From assembly GCA_024207135.1 (NCBI GenBank), contig CP042428.1:806001-870000 (forward strand): 64,000 nucleotides of DNA, read 5' to 3'. The notes beneath the pieces are model-generated. The model was not told the DNA's origin. It ran no database searches and saw nothing but the letters and a program-made list of their open reading frames with translations. This document shows positions 33,252 to 41,931 of the stretch, in pieces. The position numbers and the translations under genes are program-made. How positions within the stretch are numbered: position 1 is the stretch's first letter; each line of letters starts with the position of its first letter. Source of the stretch: Arthrobacter sp. C2 (GTDB taxonomy: Bacteria; Actinomycetota; Actinomycetes; Actinomycetales; Micrococcaceae).

Positions 33252-34391
33252 CTACTCTTGTTCCAGATCCACGCCGAGGATGCGGTCGTCCTCGGGACCC
33301 GGCGTCCCGCGGCCATCGGTGTTGTTGGTGAGGAACCACAGCTCCCCGTCCGGGGTTACCGTGACATCCCGAATGCGACCGTACTCGCCGACGTAGTGGT
33401 CGGTTGACGTGGCGGGGTCAGCGACGGGCACCGCGCGCAGCACCGATCCGCGCAGGTTGGCGATGAACAGGGTCCCATCGATGTGCGTCATGCCGCTGGG
33501 GCTGGCCGCATCAGGGGTCCACTGCTGCACCGGGTTAGTGAAGCCCTCGGCGTCGTCGATGCCCTCGACGGTCGGCCACCCGTAGTTGGCGCCGGCGCTG
33601 ATGATGTTCAGCTCGTCCCAGGTGTTTTGCCCGAACTCTGTTGCAAACATTGTCCCGTCCTGCGCCCACGCAAGTCCCTGTGGGTTGCGGTGCCCATAGC
33701 TGTAGACCAGGGAACCGTCGAACGGATTGTCATTGGGTACATCCCCGTCGGCGCTCATCCGCAGGATCTTGCCGCCCAGCGAATCCAGGTCCTGTGCTTG
33801 GTCGGCCTGCCCGGCGTCTCCCACGGTGGCATAGAGCATACCGTCCGGGCCAAAGGCGAGGCGTCCTCCGTCGTGGTAGCTCGCCGAGGGGATCCCGTCA
33901 AGAATCGAATCGGCAGCGCCCAGCGCCAGCGCCCCGGACTCGCCGGTGATATCGAAGCGTTGGATGCGGTTCTCCCCGGCACCCGTCGAGTAGACGTACA
34001 GCCGTCCATGGTCATCGACCGCCAGGCCCAGCAGGCCGCCCTCGCCGGCGCCGGCCACCCCTGGAACCGTCCCGATGACACGGGAGCTCCCGTCCTTGGC
34101 CAGTTCGAGGATGCGGGCGCTGTCGCGTTCACTGACCAAGGCCTTGCCGTCACGGAACACCACGGACCAGGGGGCCTGAATGCCGCTGCTGACCACCCGC
34201 GGAGTGCCGGTGGGTGCCGCAGCTCCGGCCGGTTCCGCCGACGAGTACGTTGATGGCGACGGCGTTGACGGTCCATCCGATGAGGTGGCCGGCGGCGAGG
34301 GCTGGGCCGGAGGTGTCGGTGTGCATGAAGTCAGCAGAAAGCTGAACCCCAGGCCGGCGGCCAGCACCGATGCTGCTCGTAGGTTCTTCAA
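33252..34391 (-). CDS. PQQ-dependent sugar (sorbosone/glucose-type) dehydrogenase lipoprotein
   Basis: The 379-residue product starts at TTG 34391, seven bases after CAGGAG. It has a lipoprotein signal ending FSFLLTSC (lipobox Cys near residue 22) and a Pro/Ser/Thr-rich linker to about residue 65. A soluble-glucose-dehydrogenase-like beta-propeller follows (GIQAPWSVVFRDG, GEGGLLGLAVDDHG, GRLAFGPDGMLYATVGDAG, YGHRNPQGLAW). The family oxidises sugars or aldoses outside the membrane using pyrroloquinoline quinone, and some members bind no PQQ. No PQQ synthesis genes are in the window. Confidence 0.85.
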   Translation of the reverse strand: MKNLRAASVLAAGLGFSFLLTSCTPTPPAQPSPPATSSDGPSTPSPSTYSSAEPAGAAAPTGTPRVVSSGIQAPWSVVFRDGKALVSERDSARILELAKDGSSRVIGTVPGVAGAGEGGLLGLAVDDHGRLYVYSTGAGENRIQRFDITGESGALALGAADSILDGIPSASYHDGGRLAFGPDGMLYATVGDAGQADQAQDLDSLGGKILRMSADGDVPNDNPFDGSLVYSYGHRNPQGLAWAQDGTMFATEFGQNTWDELNIISAGANYGWPTVEGIDDAEGFTNPVQQWTPDAASPSGMTHIDGTLFIANLRGSVLRAVPVADPATSTDHYVGEYGRIRDVTVTPDGELWFLTNNTDGRGTPGPEDDRILGVDLEQE

Positions 34392-34452
34392 GGTTTTCTC
34401 CTGGGCGTTCCGAGTTTCTTGTGATGGTTCTAGGGTGGCCGAAGTGCCTGCC

Positions 34453-35031
34453 CTAGTCGAGACGGGCGACGGTGATGTCACTGCCTTCGAGGAGCTCCAA
34501 TTGTTCGCCCGTGGCTTCGTAGGTCCCGAGATGGATGGTTTGGTCCGAAAAGTCAATGCCCGCGGTGTTGTAGTAGAAACCGAGGTTTCCCCACGGCTTG
34601 AAGTAGATCAGGTCGCCGTCTACCGGGTCCGAGCCCGAAGAACCTTCGGTCACCAGCTCCCGGGGCAGGTTGGCGATCTTCTCCCGCCCCGCGAATTCCT
34701 CGACAGGTACGGTGAGCGGGAGCATCGAGAGGAAGTCCCTGGCGGTGGGGTTCTCCGGCTTGATGGTGACATCGATGGACGTCTGCCCCGAGGTGAAACG
34801 CACGACGGGCAACTGCTCGGCGGCTGTTTCCGTGGCCGTTGATTCAGGCGCGGACGTGGTCGGGCTTGTCGCGGGCATCGATGCGGACGGCTGTGACGTG
34901 CTGGTCGCGGAGAGGGAGCTTGGCTCCGTGCCCGTTACCGGGGTCGAAGGTGTGGCGTCACCGGTCTGGGCGCATCCGGTCAGGGCCAGCAACAGCGCCA
35001 GAGATCCGGCGGTGATGTGGTTTCTACGCAT
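34453..35031 (-). CDS. Cyclophilin-like-fold lipoprotein
   Basis: The 192-residue product has a lipoprotein signal (SLALLLALTGC), a Ser/Thr/Pro-rich spacer to about residue 72 and a cyclophilin-like-fold domain at about 75-192. Visible segments include ENPTARDFLSMLPLTVPVEE, YFKPWGNLGFYYNTAG and DQTIHLGTYEATG. The fold resembles cyclophilin, but members lack isomerase residues and have no defined role. It is related in fold to the cytoplasmic protein at 40632. It lies between the MFS gene and the PQQ dehydrogenase on the minus strand, 61-83 bases from each. Confidence 0.8.
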   Translation of the reverse strand: MRRNHITAGSLALLLALTGCAQTGDATPSTPVTGTEPSSLSATSTSQPSASMPATSPTTSAPESTATETAAEQLPVVRFTSGQTSIDVTIKPENPTARDFLSMLPLTVPVEEFAGREKIANLPRELVTEGSSGSDPVDGDLIYFKPWGNLGFYYNTAGIDFSDQTIHLGTYEATGEQLELLEGSDITVARLD

Positions 35032-35114: not shown

Positions 35115-36389
35115 CTAGCGGGCAGAAGGGAAGGCATAACGACGTGCCATGAAGACGAGGGCCAGGGCAACGGCTGCCAGGGCAACCATCAGGATGGGCA
35201 GGAGCGTACCGTCGGCGGAACTGATCAAAACGGCACCGATAATGCCAGCGAAGAAGATGGCGACGTTGAACGCGACCCCGAGCAGGGAATTTGCGATATC
35301 GGCGTTCTCTCCACTGGCTGCACTGATGGAGCTCTGCAGTTGTGGTGCCGCTCCGCCGAAGGCAATTCCCCAGAGGGCAAGGGCCACCAGCACGGCGATC
35401 AGCGACTGGCTTCCGGCGATGAAGATGACGCCCGCGATCAGGAAGAGGGAGAGGCTGGCCAGGACCAGGGGCCGCGGTGCCCGGTCAATGAGGGTTCCGG
35501 TGATCCAGATGCCAACCAGGGCTGACACCCCGAACACCACCAGGGCCACGTCCACCGAGATGGACTCACTTGTCGTCCGCAGATAGGAGGCGATGTAGGT
35601 GTAAACGGTGTTGTGCGCCAGCATCCACGCAAAAATGACCACGAGGATCACCGATACCCCGGGGATGGAGAACACGCGGAGCATCGGGATTTGGGATTCC
35701 GCGCGCTGGCCGGGGGCATCGGGGACGATCGCCAGTGCGAGCAACCCGGTGAGAATCGTCAAGGCGGACAGTGCCCAGAAGGAGAAGCGCCAGTCAAAGG
35801 TTGTGCCCAGCCACGACCCGAGGGGCGTGCCCACGGCCAACCCGAGCGGCGTGCCGATCGAGGCAATGGCCAGGGCCCTTCCGGCGAACTTCGGGGCGGA
35901 GATTCGACGCGCGTAACCGGCCATCATTCCCCACGCCAACCCGGAAAAGGCTCCGGCAACGAACCTGGCCGACAGGGAAAGAATGATGTCCTCCGAGCCG
36001 GCCGCGACGATGTTCGCCACCAGAAAGCCCAGGATGGCTACGAGGAAAACGGGCTTGCGCCGCATCCCGCGGGTCAGCGCAATGGCAGGGATCGTGAGGA
36101 CCACGGTGCCCAGCGCGTAGGCGCTGACCATTTGACCCGCGGTGGCCTCGGCAATGCCCAGTCCGCTGGCGATCTGAGGCAGCAAGCCCGCTGGCATGGT
36201 TTCGGTGGCAATGAGGATGAAGCCCATGAGCGCCATGACGAGCAATGCAGCCAGTGGCAGTCGATCGCCCGGAACCCGCGGGATCGCGGCCGCCGTTGGC
36301 ATCGCTTCGGCAAGTTTCGTTGCTCCCGCGCCGATTCCCGGCGTGGCGCCGTCGCTTTCGGCGCGGCTCGAGAAGGTTTCTTTCGTCAA
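35115..36389 (-). CDS. MFS transporter (DHA1-type drug/sugar efflux family)
   Basis: The 424-residue product has about 12 membrane helices after a 45-residue cytoplasmic N-terminus. It carries the loop motif L-T-R-G-M-R-R-K-P between helices 2 and 3 and the family's helix-5 motif in GTPLGLAVGTPLGSWLG. The N-terminal segment IATETMPAGLLPQIA is typical of AraJ/Cmx-like efflux carriers. The substrate cannot be read. The start is TTG 36389 after CAGGAAG. It follows the decayed reductase genes in the same direction and is itself intact. Confidence 0.88.
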   Translation of the reverse strand: MTKETFSSRAESDGATPGIGAGATKLAEAMPTAAAIPRVPGDRLPLAALLVMALMGFILIATETMPAGLLPQIASGLGIAEATAGQMVSAYALGTVVLTIPAIALTRGMRRKPVFLVAILGFLVANIVAAGSEDIILSLSARFVAGAFSGLAWGMMAGYARRISAPKFAGRALAIASIGTPLGLAVGTPLGSWLGTTFDWRFSFWALSALTILTGLLALAIVPDAPGQRAESQIPMLRVFSIPGVSVILVVIFAWMLAHNTVYTYIASYLRTTSESISVDVALVVFGVSALVGIWITGTLIDRAPRPLVLASLSLFLIAGVIFIAGSQSLIAVLVALALWGIAFGGAAPQLQSSISAASGENADIANSLLGVAFNVAIFFAGIIGAVLISSADGTLLPILMVALAAVALALVFMARRYAFPSAR

Positions 36390-36626: not shown

Positions 36627-37003
36627 TCATGATGAGGGCCTCAGCGTGGTTCTGTCCGATCGCCATGCAGCCGGTAAGAGCCACACAGGGAGAGGCCGGT
36701 CATGGAGCCTGCCCAATCCGGTGATTGGAGTGCTCGGGCACCGCCCGGCGCGGCGACCGCTCTCTCCCCCGGCGGGGCGCTCCTCGGCAGCCTCTTCTTT
36801 CAGTGGTGCCCAGCCATTCGGGATCTGCCCGGCAGCGAGTTCACCGACTGGCGCGCCACGCAGGCTGCCGAGGACGGAGCGTTCGATGACAGCGACCAAT
36901 CCGAGTACCAGAATGAACAGCACGAAGACGACGACGATTTTTCTCCTCGATCCAGCAGTGGAGCTGATCGAATCGTCCCTTGGACGAGTCTCCTTTGGCT
37001 CAT
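36627..37003 (-). pseudogene. Possible broken small membrane-protein gene
   Basis: An ATG at 37003 overlaps (ATGA) the ancestral stop of the Old Yellow Enzyme gene upstream and reads MSQRRLVQGTIRSAPLLDRG. After a run of five A (minus strand, 36942-36938) the next frame continues with a convincing membrane helix, KIVVVFVLFILVLGLVAVIE, and stays open to 36627. One extra A would join them into about 125 codons. The later part (Pro/Arg-rich) is not convincing, so this is a tentative call. Confidence 0.35.
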
Positions 37004-38139
37004 GGATGGGAAGGAAAACGTGTCGATGGTTGACTTCCTTGGTGTGATTTCTGCCACGCGGCGTAGTCCGTGTAGCCCTTGGGGCCTTCGGTGTAGAACG
37101 TGGTGTGGTCGGGTTCGTTCAGCGGAAGCCCTTCTTGCTACCTGCGGACGAGGTCCGGGTTGGCAAGTGTCGGCCTGCCCACGACCACGGCATCGGCCCA
37201 ACCACCCTCAGTGAGATTCCGTGCATCCTGCAGGGACGTCACCGAGTTGAATCCGGTGTTCAGGATGATTCTCCCACCGAATCGGGTGCGCACCTGCTGG
37301 ACGAGTGAGCCGGAGGGGTCCGTGTGCAGGATGCTCAGGCCCGCCAGTCCCAGCGGGGCGATGCCTGCGGCCACGGCCAGGAAGGTGGCCAGGGCGTCGA
37401 TGGGGTCGCTGTCCAGCGCGTCCTCGATGGTGTTTTCCGGTGAGATCCGCAGCCAGGTCTTGTCGGCTCCGATGGCCCGGGCGACGGCCGATGCCGTTTC
37501 GATGGTGAGCCGTGCACGGTCCTCCGGCGTTCCTCCGTAGCCATCGGTTCGGTGGTTGGCCGAGGGAGCCAGGAAGTGGTGGAGCAAATAGCCATTGGCG
37601 CCATGGATTTCCACGCCGTCGAAGCCTGCCGCGATGGCGTTGCGGGCAGCCTGGACGAAATCCGCAATGATTACCGGCAGTTCGTCCGTTTCCAGGGCAC
37701 GCGGGACCTCGTAGGGGATCTTTCCCTCATAGGTCCTGGTTTGTCCGTGGATGGCGATGGCGCTGGGGGCCCCTGCCTGCTGGCCCGTGATGCCGGAGTT
37801 GGCAACACGCCCCGCATGCATGATTTGGGCGATGATACGTCCGTCTTCCGCGTGGACAGCGTCGGTGACCTTGCGCCAGCCATCGATCTGCGCCTGGGTT
37901 TCGAGTCCCGGTTGGCGCACGAAACCCTGTCCGTCAGCACTGGGGTAGATGCCTTCGGTGATCAGCATCCCCATGGAAGCGCGCTGCCGGTAGTACTCGG
38001 CGACGATCTCTCCGGGTACGCCGTCGCGGCCAGACCGGGAACGGGTGAGCGGGGCCATGACGAGGCGGTTGGGCAAGTCGAGGTCACCGAGGGTGATGGG
38101 GGAAAAGATACTCGAGGTTGTTCCTTATTCAGTGTTCAT
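37000..38139 (-). pseudogene. Old Yellow Enzyme (NemA-like ene-reductase), nonsense-mutated at both ends
   Basis: The body encodes an FMN-dependent ene-reductase: IFSPITLGDLDLPNRLVMAP, AGRVANSG, the substrate His-Gly-Ala-Asn in GVEIHGANGYLLHHFLAP and NHRTDGYGG. In the same frame, ATG 38139 is followed by a TAA at codon 5 (38127-38125). A TAG at 37140-37138 interrupts the C-terminus, after which the family's typical end resumes (QEGLPLNEPDHTTFYTEGP, KGYTDYAAWQ) to a TGA at 37000. The only open start is TTG 38076, which would lose the N-terminal strand. It is probably non-functional. Confidence 0.8.
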
Positions 38140-38188
38140 GTTGGATTTGATGACTCGTGTGCCGACTCTGTTTTCAGGGTCCGACCGT

Positions 38189-38374
38189 TTACCCTCCGCC
38201 GACGATTAGGGCGCGGGTTTCGGCGATATCGCCGGAAAACAGGTCCATCATCGGGGTCTCCACAATGCCGGGGTAGATGGCATTGATCTTGAACCCCTCG
38301 GCCGCGGAATCCAGGGCTGCCAATTTCGCCATGCCCATCACCCAGTGAGTGGACGCGGAAGCGTATGCGCTGCT
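38189..38374 (-). pseudogene. Fragment of a short-chain dehydrogenase/reductase
   Basis: About 60 codons match only the C-terminal half of a classical SDR: SSAYASASTHWVMGMAK (active-site region), then INAIYPGIVETPMMD. The Lys of the Tyr-x-x-x-Lys pair is missing, the Rossmann half is absent, and the frame stops at 38189 before the usual C-terminal G-G-W end. The fragment joins directly onto the end of the alcohol dehydrogenase remnant, so a deletion probably fused the two. Confidence 0.75.
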
Positions 38375-38391
38375 TACGCCGCAGAGAGCGG

Positions 38392-39410
38392 TCAAGGCTG
38401 GAAGAGGACCTTGATGGCGCGACGTTCGTCCATGGCCTTGTAGCCTTCGGCGGCGTCATCCAGCGGGGGGGGTCAGGTCGAAGACCTTGCCGGGGTTGAT
38501 CTTGCGGTCCCAGATCAGTTGGATCAGTTCGGGCAGGAACCGGCGCACTGGGGCGGGGCCGCCGTGCAGGTGCACGCCGGAGAAAACAACTCCTCGCCGG
38601 GCAGCTGCTCGTCGTGGGAAACCCCGACATAGCCGACGTGGCCGCCGGGGCGGGTGGACCGGATCGCCTGCATCATGGATTCCTGCGTTCCAACGGCCTC
38701 ATGACGCTGTGCGCGCCGTAGCCACCGGTGAGTTCCTCGATGCGGGCAACCCCGGCGTCGCCGCGTTCCTCGACGATATCGGTGGCTCCGAATTCGCGGG
38801 CGAGGGCCTGGCGGTCGGCATGGCGGGACATGGAAATGATGCGTGTGGCGCCGAGTTGCTTGGATGCCATGATCCCTAGCAGTCCGACGGCGCCGTCACC
38901 GACGACGGCCACGGTCTTGCCAGGGCTTGCCTCGGCGGCCACGGCGGCAACCCAACCGGTGCCCAACACATCGGAGGCGGCCAATAGCGAGGGGATGAGG
39001 TCATCCTCGGGCATGGACGGGGTCGCCACGAGGGTGCCGTCGGCGTGTGGGATCCGGGCAAATTCGGCCTGGGTGCCGATCATGCTCATGATTTCGACAT
39101 GGACACAGCGGGACTGGTACCCGGCCAGACAGATCTCACAGGTGTTGTCTGATGCCATGAACGAGCCGACAACGAAGTCCCCGGGCTTGACGGACTACAC
39201 CTGCGCGCCGATCTCCTCGACCACGCCGACGTACTCGTGACCCATGGGGCTATCCGCCGCATCGTCGGCTCCGCGGTACGGCCACAGGTCGGAACCGCAG
39301 ACGCAGGAAGCAGTAACCCGGATCACTGCATCGGTGGGGTGGACGATGGCGGGTTGTTCGCGTACGGCGACGCGTACATCGCCGGGTGCGTGCATGATGA
39401 CTCCGCGCAT
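38392..39410 (-). pseudogene. Zinc-dependent alcohol dehydrogenase with one amber codon and three frameshifts
   Basis: From ATG 39410 the frame gives MRGVIMHAPGDVRVAV and the zinc/substrate region SCVCGSDLWPYRG and GHEYVGVVEEIGAQV. It stops at TAG 39197-39195 and resumes SVKPGDFVVGSFMASDNTCE. The cofactor domain (TVAVVGDGAVGLLGIMA) shifts frame near 38701, again near 38583, and again in a run of eight G (38465-38472). The tail reads AAEGYKAMDERRAIKVLFQP before TGA at 38392. The 1019-base length equals 340 codons minus one base, matching two deletions and one insertion. Confidence 0.85.
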
Positions 39411-39545
39411 GAGAGGTGATCCTCTTTGTAATCGGATCTTTTATCGATTCAACGACACCACGAATCGACCGCTGGACGGAGCCCCTGTTGATGGTGGTAC
39501 CGCAAGGGACTCCCTCGGAGCCGGGGTCTCGTCTACCGTGGAAGC

Positions 39546-40442
39546 ATGGATAATCGAGCAGAAGTGCGGGAGTTCCTTTCGTCGCGTAGGGACAAACTCA
39601 CCCCGAAACAGGTCGGCCTCCCAACCGGCAACAACCGGAGGGTCAAGGGCCTGCGACGAAACGAAGTCGCCACCTTGGCTGGTGTCAGCATCGAGTACTA
39701 CACCCGCATCGAACGCGGCTCTATCAGCGGCGTCTCCCCCGAGATCCTCGACGCCCTCGCCAAGGCGTTGCAGCTCGATGATGCGGAACGTGCACACCTT
39801 TTCGACCTCGCACAGGCGGCGAGCCCCGTAGCCAGACCTCCGCGGCGACGAAACCCCAAGACCTGGCTCGCACACCAATCCCTGCAATGGGTGCTCGACG
39901 CCGTCACGGCGGGGCCGGCGTTCGTCCGGAACGGACGCATGGATATCCTCGCGGTGAACCCCTTGGCCCGCGCGTTCTACAAGGATGTTTTCGATATGCC
40001 GGGCCAGGCGCCAAACATCGCCAGGTACACGTTCCTCGATCCCCGGGCCCACGATTTCTACCCCGATTGGGAACTCTTCGCCGAGGTCACCGTCGCCATC
40101 CTGCGCACCGAAGCTTCGCGCGATCCACACAACAAGGAACTCCACGACCTCATTGGGGAGCTCAGCACCCGATCCGACGATTTTCGGCGGCGGTGGAGCG
40201 CGCACAACGTCCGCCACCACGGGGCAGGTTCCAAGACCTTCCACCACCCGGTCGTCGGTGAAATCACACTGGCGTACGAAGGCCTGGAAATGGCAGCCGA
40301 ACCCGGCCTGACCCTCACACTTTATGCCGCAGAGCCCGGTTCCAGCTCCGAACAGGCAATGCGGCTGCTCGCCTCGTGGGCAGCGACCGAGTACGGCATA
40401 CAGGCCACCTCCACCGTCGCCGAGGCGCCAACCGACCGCTGA
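39546..40442 (+). CDS. XRE-family regulator with MmyB-like ligand domain
   Basis: The 298-residue regulator has an N-terminal XRE HTH (about 30-85; GLRRNEVATLAGVSIEYYTR, then IERG) and a MmyB-type domain (about 105-285) with DILAVNPLARAFY and an FHHP segment (Phe-His-His-Pro). MmyB-like domains resemble PAS folds and may bind fatty acids or other small ligands. It diverges from the decayed dehydrogenase/OYE series, which it probably controlled. The ATG lies six bases after TACCGT, and GGAAG between them could be a ribosome site. Confidence 0.9.
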   Translation: MDNRAEVREFLSSRRDKLTPKQVGLPTGNNRRVKGLRRNEVATLAGVSIEYYTRIERGSISGVSPEILDALAKALQLDDAERAHLFDLAQAASPVARPPRRRNPKTWLAHQSLQWVLDAVTAGPAFVRNGRMDILAVNPLARAFYKDVFDMPGQAPNIARYTFLDPRAHDFYPDWELFAEVTVAILRTEASRDPHNKELHDLIGELSTRSDDFRRRWSAHNVRHHGAGSKTFHHPVVGEITLAYEGLEMAAEPGLTLTLYAAEPGSSSEQAMRLLASWAATEYGIQATSTVAEAPTDR

Positions 40443-40631
40443 ACCCGACAACGAAGACCAAGGTCCGACGCGCATTCCGTCGGCCTTGTACGGTGAAGCC
40501 CCGGCAGCGGTACCGCTCAGACTAGGACGGAACCTCCCAACAAGGTGCTCTCGGGCATCGGCACGGATAACTGGTCCCGCCACAGGGCTTCCAAAGACCA
40601 ACCAACACGATCGAACAAAGGACGCATCTGC

Positions 40632-40997
40632 ATGAAGATCGAACTGGCCATCAACGGAAACCGTGTTGACGCCCAACTGTATGACCATCCGGTGGCACGC
40701 GAACTGGCTGGGCTGCTGCCCCTCGATCTCGAATTCAACGATTTCAACGCGGTCGAGAAAGTCGCGACCCTCGACCAGGCACTTGGCCTGGATGGTGTGC
40801 CCCACGCGGATGCTCCCGGCCCTGGTGAAATCGGCTACTACGCCCCAGCCCAGGGCCTGGTCCTGTACTACGGCAGCCCCGGGAAATGGCCCGGACTCGT
40901 GCGCATGGGACGATTCGACTACGACTTGGGTGCGCTGCGCGCGCTACCGGACAGGACGCTGATCCATTTCGCATTGGCTGCCGTCCCCAACCCCTGA
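40632..40997 (+). CDS. Cyclophilin-like-fold protein (cytoplasmic)
   Basis: The 121-residue product starts at ATG 40632 (MKIELAINGNRVDAQLYDHP) and has no signal. It contains the cyclophilin-like-fold segments ARELAGLLPLDLEFNDFN, EIGYYAPAQGLVLYYG and RMGRFDYDLGAL. Function in the family is unknown. It lies 190 bases downstream of the XRE gene and shares its fold with the lipoprotein at 34453, on the other side of the decayed operon. Confidence 0.8.
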   Translation: MKIELAINGNRVDAQLYDHPVARELAGLLPLDLEFNDFNAVEKVATLDQALGLDGVPHADAPGPGEIGYYAPAQGLVLYYGSPGKWPGLVRMGRFDYDLGALRALPDRTLIHFALAAVPNP

Positions 40998-41205: not shown

Positions 41206-41931
41206 ATGGAACGCCCATTCGTCATCATCCACACGCACACCTCAATCGACGGAAACATCGACGGAATGGACCTGCCCGCATTCGAAGCCGGCAGCCAGCT
41301 CTATCAAGACCTGTCGTTGACCCCCGGCAAGCAGGTGCTCAACGTGGATGCCTACCTGAACGGCAAGACCTCCACGGAAGACAACATCACCCACTACAAG
41401 GTCCCCGATGTGGACGAGCACGCCGCGCAGGTCCCGGCCGGGGACTTCATAGCCGAGCCCGATGCAGGCATGTACTACATTTCCATCGACCCTCGTGGGG
41501 AGCTCGCGTGGGAAACCAATACATTCGGTTACGGTGGCGTCCCCGCACATTTCCTTGACGTGCTCACCGACCAGGCAAGCAACGCCTACAAGGACTTCCT
41601 GCGCCGGAAGAAAATCTCGTACATCATCGCAGGCACCGATCAAGTCGACTACGGCATCATGCTGACCAAACTCGCCAACCTTGGCATCAAACGCCTCATG
41701 GTCGGTGGTGGCGGCACCATCAACTGGTCGTTCCTCCAGCAGGGCCTGGTGGATGAAGTCAGCATGGTGTTGGCCCCAATTGCGAATGGCGACCCTAATG
41801 CCCCTCGCTTTTTTACAGCCCGCGAACCGTATAGTTCTGTCAGTCCCGTCGCTTTGCGGCTGAGCAGCGTTGAAGACCTCGGCGACAGCGTCGTTTGGCT
41901 GCGCTATACCGTCAATCAGCCCACCCCATAG
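41206..41931 (+). CDS. RibD C-terminal/dihydrofolate reductase-like reductase
   Basis: The 241-residue product has the RibD-C fold: HTHTSIDGNIDGMDLPAF at the start, the NADPH-site segment LMVGGGGTINWSFLQQGLVD and E-V-S-M-V-L-A-P. RibD-like stand-alone proteins reduce small carbonyl or pterin-like compounds, but the substrate is unknown. It is likely transcribed with the upstream cyclophilin-like gene or alone; AAGGAC precedes the ATG. Linkage to an XRE/MmyB regulator suggests a redox role. Confidence 0.85.
   Translation: MERPFVIIHTHTSIDGNIDGMDLPAFEAGSQLYQDLSLTPGKQVLNVDAYLNGKTSTEDNITHYKVPDVDEHAAQVPAGDFIAEPDAGMYYISIDPRGELAWETNTFGYGGVPAHFLDVLTDQASNAYKDFLRRKKISYIIAGTDQVDYGIMLTKLANLGIKRLMVGGGGTINWSFLQQGLVDEVSMVLAPIANGDPNAPRFFTAREPYSSVSPVALRLSSVEDLGDSVVWLRYTVNQPTP

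Follow-up and report, generated by a model that had tools for sequence, protein, structure and literature searches.

A persisting MmyB/MltR-type regulator beside decayed dehydrogenase genes in Arthrobacter sp. C2, with a second operator-like dyad before an intact efflux gene

Regulators of the MmyB/MltR type occur predominantly in actinomycetes and, in the parts of the family's description that we drew on, stand divergent from SDR/MDR genes (PMC3406030). In S. coelicolor, 15 of the 16 paralogues share their upstream region with a putative target, and those same parts name few tested targets (PMC3406030). For one family member, the methylenomycin regulator MmyB, pseudo-palindromic "B-boxes" have been suggested there as target sites (PMC3406030). 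In Corynebacterium glutamicum, the XRE regulator MsrR, which has a redox switch at Cys62, is encoded divergently from a gene for MFS multidrug efflux; it binds the intergenic region and represses both sides, including itself (PMC7532634).

Here, we describe a locus at which an MmyB/MltR-type regulator is intact and the dehydrogenase genes beside it are dead. The window, i.e., the whole stretch of 64,000 nucleotides that was analysed, is part of a 4.56-Mb single-contig genome of completeness 99.99, whose genus is represented by 15 genomes in the collection. We consider it probable that the locus is a two-arm detoxification regulon that has lost its enzyme arm and kept its regulator and efflux arm.

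Lesions between the regulator and the MFS gene

Four broken minus-strand items lie between the regulator gene and an MFS transporter gene. These items and the genes around them are as follows:

33252..34556, minus strand: glucose/sorbosone dehydrogenase (GSDH) ORF (Pfam PF07995, E 9.1e-68)
34453..35031, minus strand: cyclophilin-like lipoprotein, intact, 192 aa, downstream of the MFS gene (Pfam PF18050, E 8.3e-27)
35115..36389, minus strand: MFS efflux-type transporter, intact, 424 aa (Pfam PF07690, E 2.4e-42)
36630..36950, minus strand: debris, possibly the 5' end of an SLT lytic transglycosylase gene (weak match)
37048..38115, minus strand: Old Yellow Enzyme (OYE, alkene reductase type) pseudogene (Pfam PF00724, E 2.8e-64)
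38174..38374, minus strand: short-chain dehydrogenase (SDR) remnant of about 60 residues (Pfam PF00106, E 3.2e-5, below the curated cut-off)
38392..39410, minus strand: zinc-type medium-chain alcohol dehydrogenase (ADH) pseudogene with a premature TAG and three frame changes
39546..40442, plus strand: XRE regulator of the MmyB/MltR type (HTH + MLTR_LBD), intact, 298 aa (Pfam PF17765, E 2.8e-59; PF13560, E 4e-12)
40545..40997, plus strand: cyclophilin-like protein, open frame (Pfam PF18050, E 2.3e-26)
41206..41931, plus strand: RibD_C-type reductase, open frame (Pfam PF01872, E 1.5e-16)

The regulator has the domain composition that defines the MmyB/MltR type, an N-terminal XRE HTH followed by an MLTR_LBD ligand domain (a putative binder of a fatty acid or other small ligand), and matches the MltR structure 3pxp weakly in sequence (E 7.9e-5). 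It is divergent from the ADH gene, as the family pattern of an SDR/MDR or antibiotic-related neighbour leads one to expect; that gene is dead here and intact in the same-genus genome G011 and in others. A first-pass annotation of the window had placed an intact regulator next to lesions in the ADH, SDR and OYE genes, and both statements are borne out: the regulator frame is open and matched by Pfam, and each of the three genes is damaged in its own way.

In one alignment against 10 ADH genes of other genomes, the ADH copy shows an in-frame TAG at 39195-39197, single-base losses near 38698-38705 and 38580-38590, and one extra base in the 8-base run at 38465-38472. The SDR remnant consists of two pieces of the protein's second half plus a stop; measured against three SDRs of 256, 256 and 258 aa, it is missing the first ~154 and ~36 inner residues, and the stop falls in the last few. 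At the position where 13 aligned homologues (including two paralogues from the same genome) have ATG, TTG or GTG, the OYE pseudogene lacks a start codon, and it carries a TAG at 37138-37140, 30 codons before the end of the homology. Since its frame is otherwise open over more than 300 codons, its death may postdate that of the rest. Its dN/dS of 0.19-0.28 against the 13 homologues, compared with 0.07-0.22 for the lowest 60 values listed among the others, only hints at a relaxation of constraint. The fourth item had been taken for a decayed small membrane protein; it is broken, as proposed, but weakly resembles the N-terminus of an SLT transglycosylase instead. It has no Pfam match; of its five weak foreign matches, the best (42% identity across 53 aa, E 3.9e-5) aligns it with the N-terminal part of a Pfam-SLT protein in G058.

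Sequencing or assembly error would be an extremely improbable source of this pattern. One frame change does sit in an 8-base homopolymer, and that run alone could be such an error; multi-codon deletions and stops are not homopolymer errors, and the interval holds such deletions, a lost start and three stop codons in three genes, amid intact neighbours in a single-contig genome of the completeness given above. We therefore rejected this explanation on the deletions, stop codons and lost start spread across three genes. The relatives described below likewise point to gene loss and not to sequencing error, in agreement with the first-pass view that the lesions are not random error.

The accompanying statement that the flanking genes are nearly all intact is confirmed for the six covered here, the MFS, regulator, lipoprotein, GSDH, cyclophilin-like and RibD_C genes. 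The start of the GSDH ORF is uncertain, and its listed coordinates overlap the lipoprotein gene, whose lipoprotein nature was judged by eye. At the DNA level, GSDH is conserved in the same-genus genomes G008, G011 and G013, and the lipoprotein gene in G008 and G011. The MFS gene is 88% identical to the G008 copy over its full length. Separately, we observed that the nearest NCBIfam models to the MFS protein (35115-36389) are Cmx/CmrA chloramphenicol efflux and sugar-transporter families, well below cut-off.

Relatives and the origin of the interval

A DNA search of 99 genomes, including the window's own and all 14 of the same genus, followed by local comparison, found the locus in three same-genus genomes, G011, G008 and G013. 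In G011, the regulator is accompanied by an intact ADH gene that abuts the MFS gene, with no SDR and no OYE. In G008, the regulator and MFS genes face each other, the interval is absent, and 44 bp separate two conserved blocks; this genome probably deleted the cluster rather than never having had it. In G013, the regulator is present and its upstream dyad (site 1, below) faces a glucose/sorbosone dehydrogenase gene; a search at E 1e-110 gave no ADH match in this genome, and it lacks an orthologous MFS, the best match being 38% and elsewhere in the genome. Neither G008 nor G013 has any trace of the cluster beside the regulator that it keeps. Because G013 has the regulator and neither arm, retention cannot be due to the pump alone.

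Given that the genes are broken here, that relatives hold intact counterparts, and that in G008 the same flanks enclose no cluster, loss of selection fits the data, as the first-pass annotation had supposed: adjacent genes are broken, the tested neighbours are intact, and ADH genes and ADH-SDR sets are intact elsewhere. The check that it had proposed, a search of relatives for an intact cluster, turned up the ADH gene beside regulator and MFS in G011; an intact adh-sdr-oye-mfs set was looked for in the OYE loci, the SDR loci and the relatives, and not found.

Within the genus, a regulator orthologue (at least 87%) is present in 4 of the 15 genomes and an MFS orthologue (at least 76%) in 3 of the 15, the window's counted, so the module is accessory. 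The regulator tree places the window, G008, G013 and G011 in a supported clade (97*), with the window beside G008 plus G013 at 94, just below the star threshold. The ADH tree disagrees with this topology: there, the window copy clusters with four from another genus (82/85) and G011 falls outside, so that simple vertical descent of ADH at the locus is not secured. Counting ADH changes at codon positions 1 and 2 versus 3 gave 36:36 on the window branch and 15:36 on the G011 branch (Fisher p 0.027; one comparison, four outgroup rows), which is mild evidence that ADH lost constraint on the window branch and that much of the branch was still constrained.

Broken copies were also seen elsewhere in the collection. 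In another genus, an ADH homologue (L249, G321:C1:1458821-1459864) has a TGA and a TAG in the matched frame, with no regulator match in the surrounding 13 kb, and in the second ADH copy of G294 (G294:C1:1767817-1768830) a TAG interrupts the gene, some 8 kb from a stop-free copy. A regulator relative at G392:C6:428993-429892 has a TGA and a TAA within the matched frame. The MFS match next to the regulator at L207 (G292), on its upstream side, is split into three pieces that lie in different frames toward the 3' end of the match; that pump may be frameshifted.

The arrangement in G011, where ADH abuts MFS with no SDR or OYE between them, raises the possibility that a foreign block (SDR, OYE and transglycosylase fragment) was inserted between ADH and MFS and wrecked the operon, its contents then decaying. 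Searched at E 1e-7, the SDR remnant has matches in 12 of 396 genomes of the order, the window's counted, and the best of the 11 foreign matches reaches 56% and belongs to another family. The nearest DNA relatives of OYE (74%) are in another genus, which also accords with insertion. On the other hand, the three best foreign SDR matches (G487, G557 and G635, in three other families; 56, 54 and 51% identity in the search, with 52-55% also recorded for these SDRs) each lie within a few kb of relatives of the ADH (74-81%) and the regulator (59-77%), and this linkage means that the SDR can be native. In G557 and G635, a strong dyad (38.3 and 40.4 bits, respectively) separates the regulator from a divergent ADH gene. 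The arrangement in G487 is another: ADH and SDR lie downstream of the regulator on its own strand, and the site proximal to it is weak, at 15.3 bits. Among the other SDR matches (the neighbourhoods of G516, G609 and G538 were left out), G020 has a regulator relative nearby, G687 and G473 have neither ADH nor regulator within the 12 kb fetched, and G128 and G023 have no ADH or regulator within their short loci. The insertion reading is also opposed by the lack of visible mobility features: no Pfam match was obtained for ten other ORFs within or close to the interval (both strands), so no transposase was seen, and no long repeats flank the interval, the repeats there being 14-24 nt. We regard a foreign block as rather unlikely.

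An SDR search in 59 relatives gave matches in 50, the own genome counted, with 52% for the best among the foreign matches listed; by their similarity, these are matches to the general SDR family. SDR relatives on plasmids comprised 77 records, all below 60%. As side observations, in G557 a RibD_C protein is encoded between the ADH and SDR genes, and a RibD_C gene is also found beside the window's regulator, and the ADH-SDR-regulator set of G487 includes a cyclophilin-like gene (recognised by eye only), a kind that also stands beside the window's regulator.

The first-pass annotation had attributed the lesions to decay of a whole operon serving one pathway. Neither part is supported. The MFS gene, transcribed in the same orientation, remains intact and is preceded by an operator-like site of its own; no examined OYE neighbourhood links OYE to the ADH/SDR set; and the fourth item looks like a piece of a transglycosylase gene. 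Specifically, ADH and SDR matches are absent from the OYE neighbourhoods of G160, G144, G102, G307, G268, G012 and G031, where the single MFS match, a weak one, is in G012. In 100 other OYE loci (20 short loci plus 80 from the best 80 of 130 matches, those 80 being at most 55% identical, with only two actinomycetes by title and the window's own genome absent), an ADH match occurs in 5 (29-36% to the query) and an SDR match in 2 (38-41%); at these identities they are only distant relatives. Five SDR loci (G487, G557, G635, G687 and G473) contain no OYE match, and the OYE relatives on plasmids (2404 records) are all below 60%. Judged by these associations, the interval is mosaic in make-up, combining two enzyme genes that accompany the regulator elsewhere with other debris.

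The decay might also be nothing more than that of a redundant or unused cluster in one species, with the regulator not yet hit and the second dyad a functionless leftover. Redundancy is in keeping with two other OYE genes in the same genome (67% amino acid identity over all 312 query residues, in one piece each) and an ADH relative (44-52%) elsewhere in it, and G013 too is without an orthologous pump. Selection on the regulator speaks against this account: its dN/dS is as low for the window versus six orthologues (0.047-0.087) as among the others (0.060-0.106), and three same-genus relatives have retained it, each with a different neighbour. For the pump, dN/dS is 0.133 against G008 and 0.164-0.190 for the other five pairs. 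Evidence from the dyad, given next, bears on plain decay from both sides; overall we find it unlikely, if somewhat less so than the insertion of a foreign block.

The operator-like dyad and its neighbours

Upstream of the regulator lies a conserved dyad, about GGGAGTCCC-TGTTGA-NAGGGGTACCGGC-AGGGACTCCC (130 bp aligned, 19 loci). The analysis covered 46 loci with regulator relatives, which are the upper part of the regulator-match list, some ADH-bearing loci, the window and one own-genome paralogue, and hence no census. A 38-bp matrix was built from the regulator-proximal sites of 32 of the 45 non-window loci, the rest falling below the seed rule and the window being left out; in those 32 loci, the upstream dyad lies mostly at about -69. 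Nine of the 46 loci have no proximal site of at least 12 bits (L214, L215, L226, L227, L232, L235, L237, L238 and the own paralogue L245). The matrix finds two sites in the window:

39477..39514, plus strand: operator-like dyad 1 (site 1), in the divergent promoter region of regulator and ADH, 39.5 bits
36484..36521, plus strand: operator-like dyad 2 (site 2), 94 bp upstream of the MFS start, 30.5 bits

The next-best scores in the 64 kb are 1.6 (site 1 read backwards) and 0.1, and the top score in 20 block-shuffled windows was 10.1. G008 carries both sites between regulator and MFS, with starts 102 bp apart and a site 2 counterpart of 27.6 bits. Between the window and G008, site 2 is identical at 31 of 38 positions, no better than the surrounding block (83%), which is what a leftover under plain decay would look like. 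G037, of another genus, also has two dyad sites.

Outside the 200-bp training zone, the 46 loci (493,689 bases) hold 22 sites of at least 24 bits, compared with none in ten shuffles of the same loci (best 17.8). Adding the second site of G008, which was masked in that count, gives 23 remote sites, for which the genes starting within 220 bp were considered. Twelve of the 23 precede a Pfam-confirmed MFS gene (all 10 tested candidates matched MFS_1, to which the window and G008 are added), and one more stands before an MFS-like ORF that is cut by the locus end and was not given to Pfam. Five precede cyclophilin-like lipoproteins, all five of which matched Cyclophil_like2 when tested; all three hydrolase candidates matched DLH; one site precedes a zinc alcohol dehydrogenase, and one is shared by an MFS gene and a short-chain dehydrogenase. 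The remote site at -3056 in L222 has no ORF of at least 120 aa within 220 bp. Pumps preceded by the dyad thus recur in other genera, which argues against site 2 as a mere relic of plain decay.

Operator-like sites were also observed before alpha/beta (DLH-type) hydrolase genes in L218, L222 and L224 (genus g10), suggesting that such hydrolases may be a third kind of candidate target; L221 and L223 have weaker dyad sites at similar places.

The gene divergent from the regulator varies across the 46 loci: it is ADH in 11 (the dead window copy counted), an MFS relative in 8 and something else in 27, and the regulator tree requires at least 10 changes of divergent neighbour. MFS, the divergent neighbour in those 8 loci, is in the window the gene with the second candidate site.

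Genome-wide, a 19-base pattern derived from relatives recovered site 1 and three matches with three mismatches (reversed control, 2), and a pattern derived from both window sites recovered both exactly plus two matches with three mismatches (reversed control, 4). The pattern search, stricter than the matrix, thus revealed no further strong sites in the genome. Patterns written after site 2 had been seen are not independent of it; the matrix does not use site 2. Literature searches found no published motif matching the dyad, and the main text of PMC12565409 contains GGGA and AGTCCC 0 times.

A regulon with two arms and its known counterparts

We return to the reading of the locus as a two-arm regulon. 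An accessory detoxification module would be controlled by one MmyB/MltR-type regulator. Its enzyme arm, ADH and SDR, would be transcribed away from the regulator gene, and its efflux arm would comprise the cyclophilin-like lipoprotein and the MFS pump. Most likely, the regulator binds the 38-bp dyad by its own promoter and, in this lineage, the second copy before the pump, and, by analogy with C. glutamicum MsrR, it would repress until an inducer is sensed. In this species, selection on the enzyme arm would have been lost, and ADH and SDR decayed; the interval also contains the dead OYE and a dead fragment of another gene. What remained are the regulator, the pump and both operator-like sites. 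The second candidate operator before the pump may help explain why the regulator was retained, and the pump may be what keeps it.

A broader version, which we hold more tentatively, sees the regulator plus its 38-bp operator as an independent cassette that persists beyond its targets: enzymes (ADH, SDR), pumps and cyclophilin-like lipoproteins would be swapped, lost or moved, each acquiring or retaining an operator copy of its own. If this is true, the window and its three same-genus relatives would present four stages of turnover, namely intact (G011), decayed (window), absent (G008) and re-faced to another gene (G013). The four states show a regulator that is kept as its enzymes are lost. 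Copies of the candidate operator precede pump, hydrolase and lipoprotein genes and a dehydrogenase gene across several genera, which makes the putative regulon testable.

As for known systems, the window regulator resembles the regulators covered in the consulted parts of PMC3406030 in having an HTH and an MLTR_LBD; the B-boxes of MmyB, suggested as pseudo-palindromic target sites (PMC3406030), may be a counterpart of its candidate dyad. It differs from them in that its dehydrogenase genes are dead and the regulator persists, and in the second operator-like site before a pump 3 kb away. MsrR, on the sections of PMC7532634 that we used, may be the closest tested analogue found for its mode of working, although MsrR is a protein of 240 aa, compared with 298 aa here, and is encoded in an operon with 3-mst.
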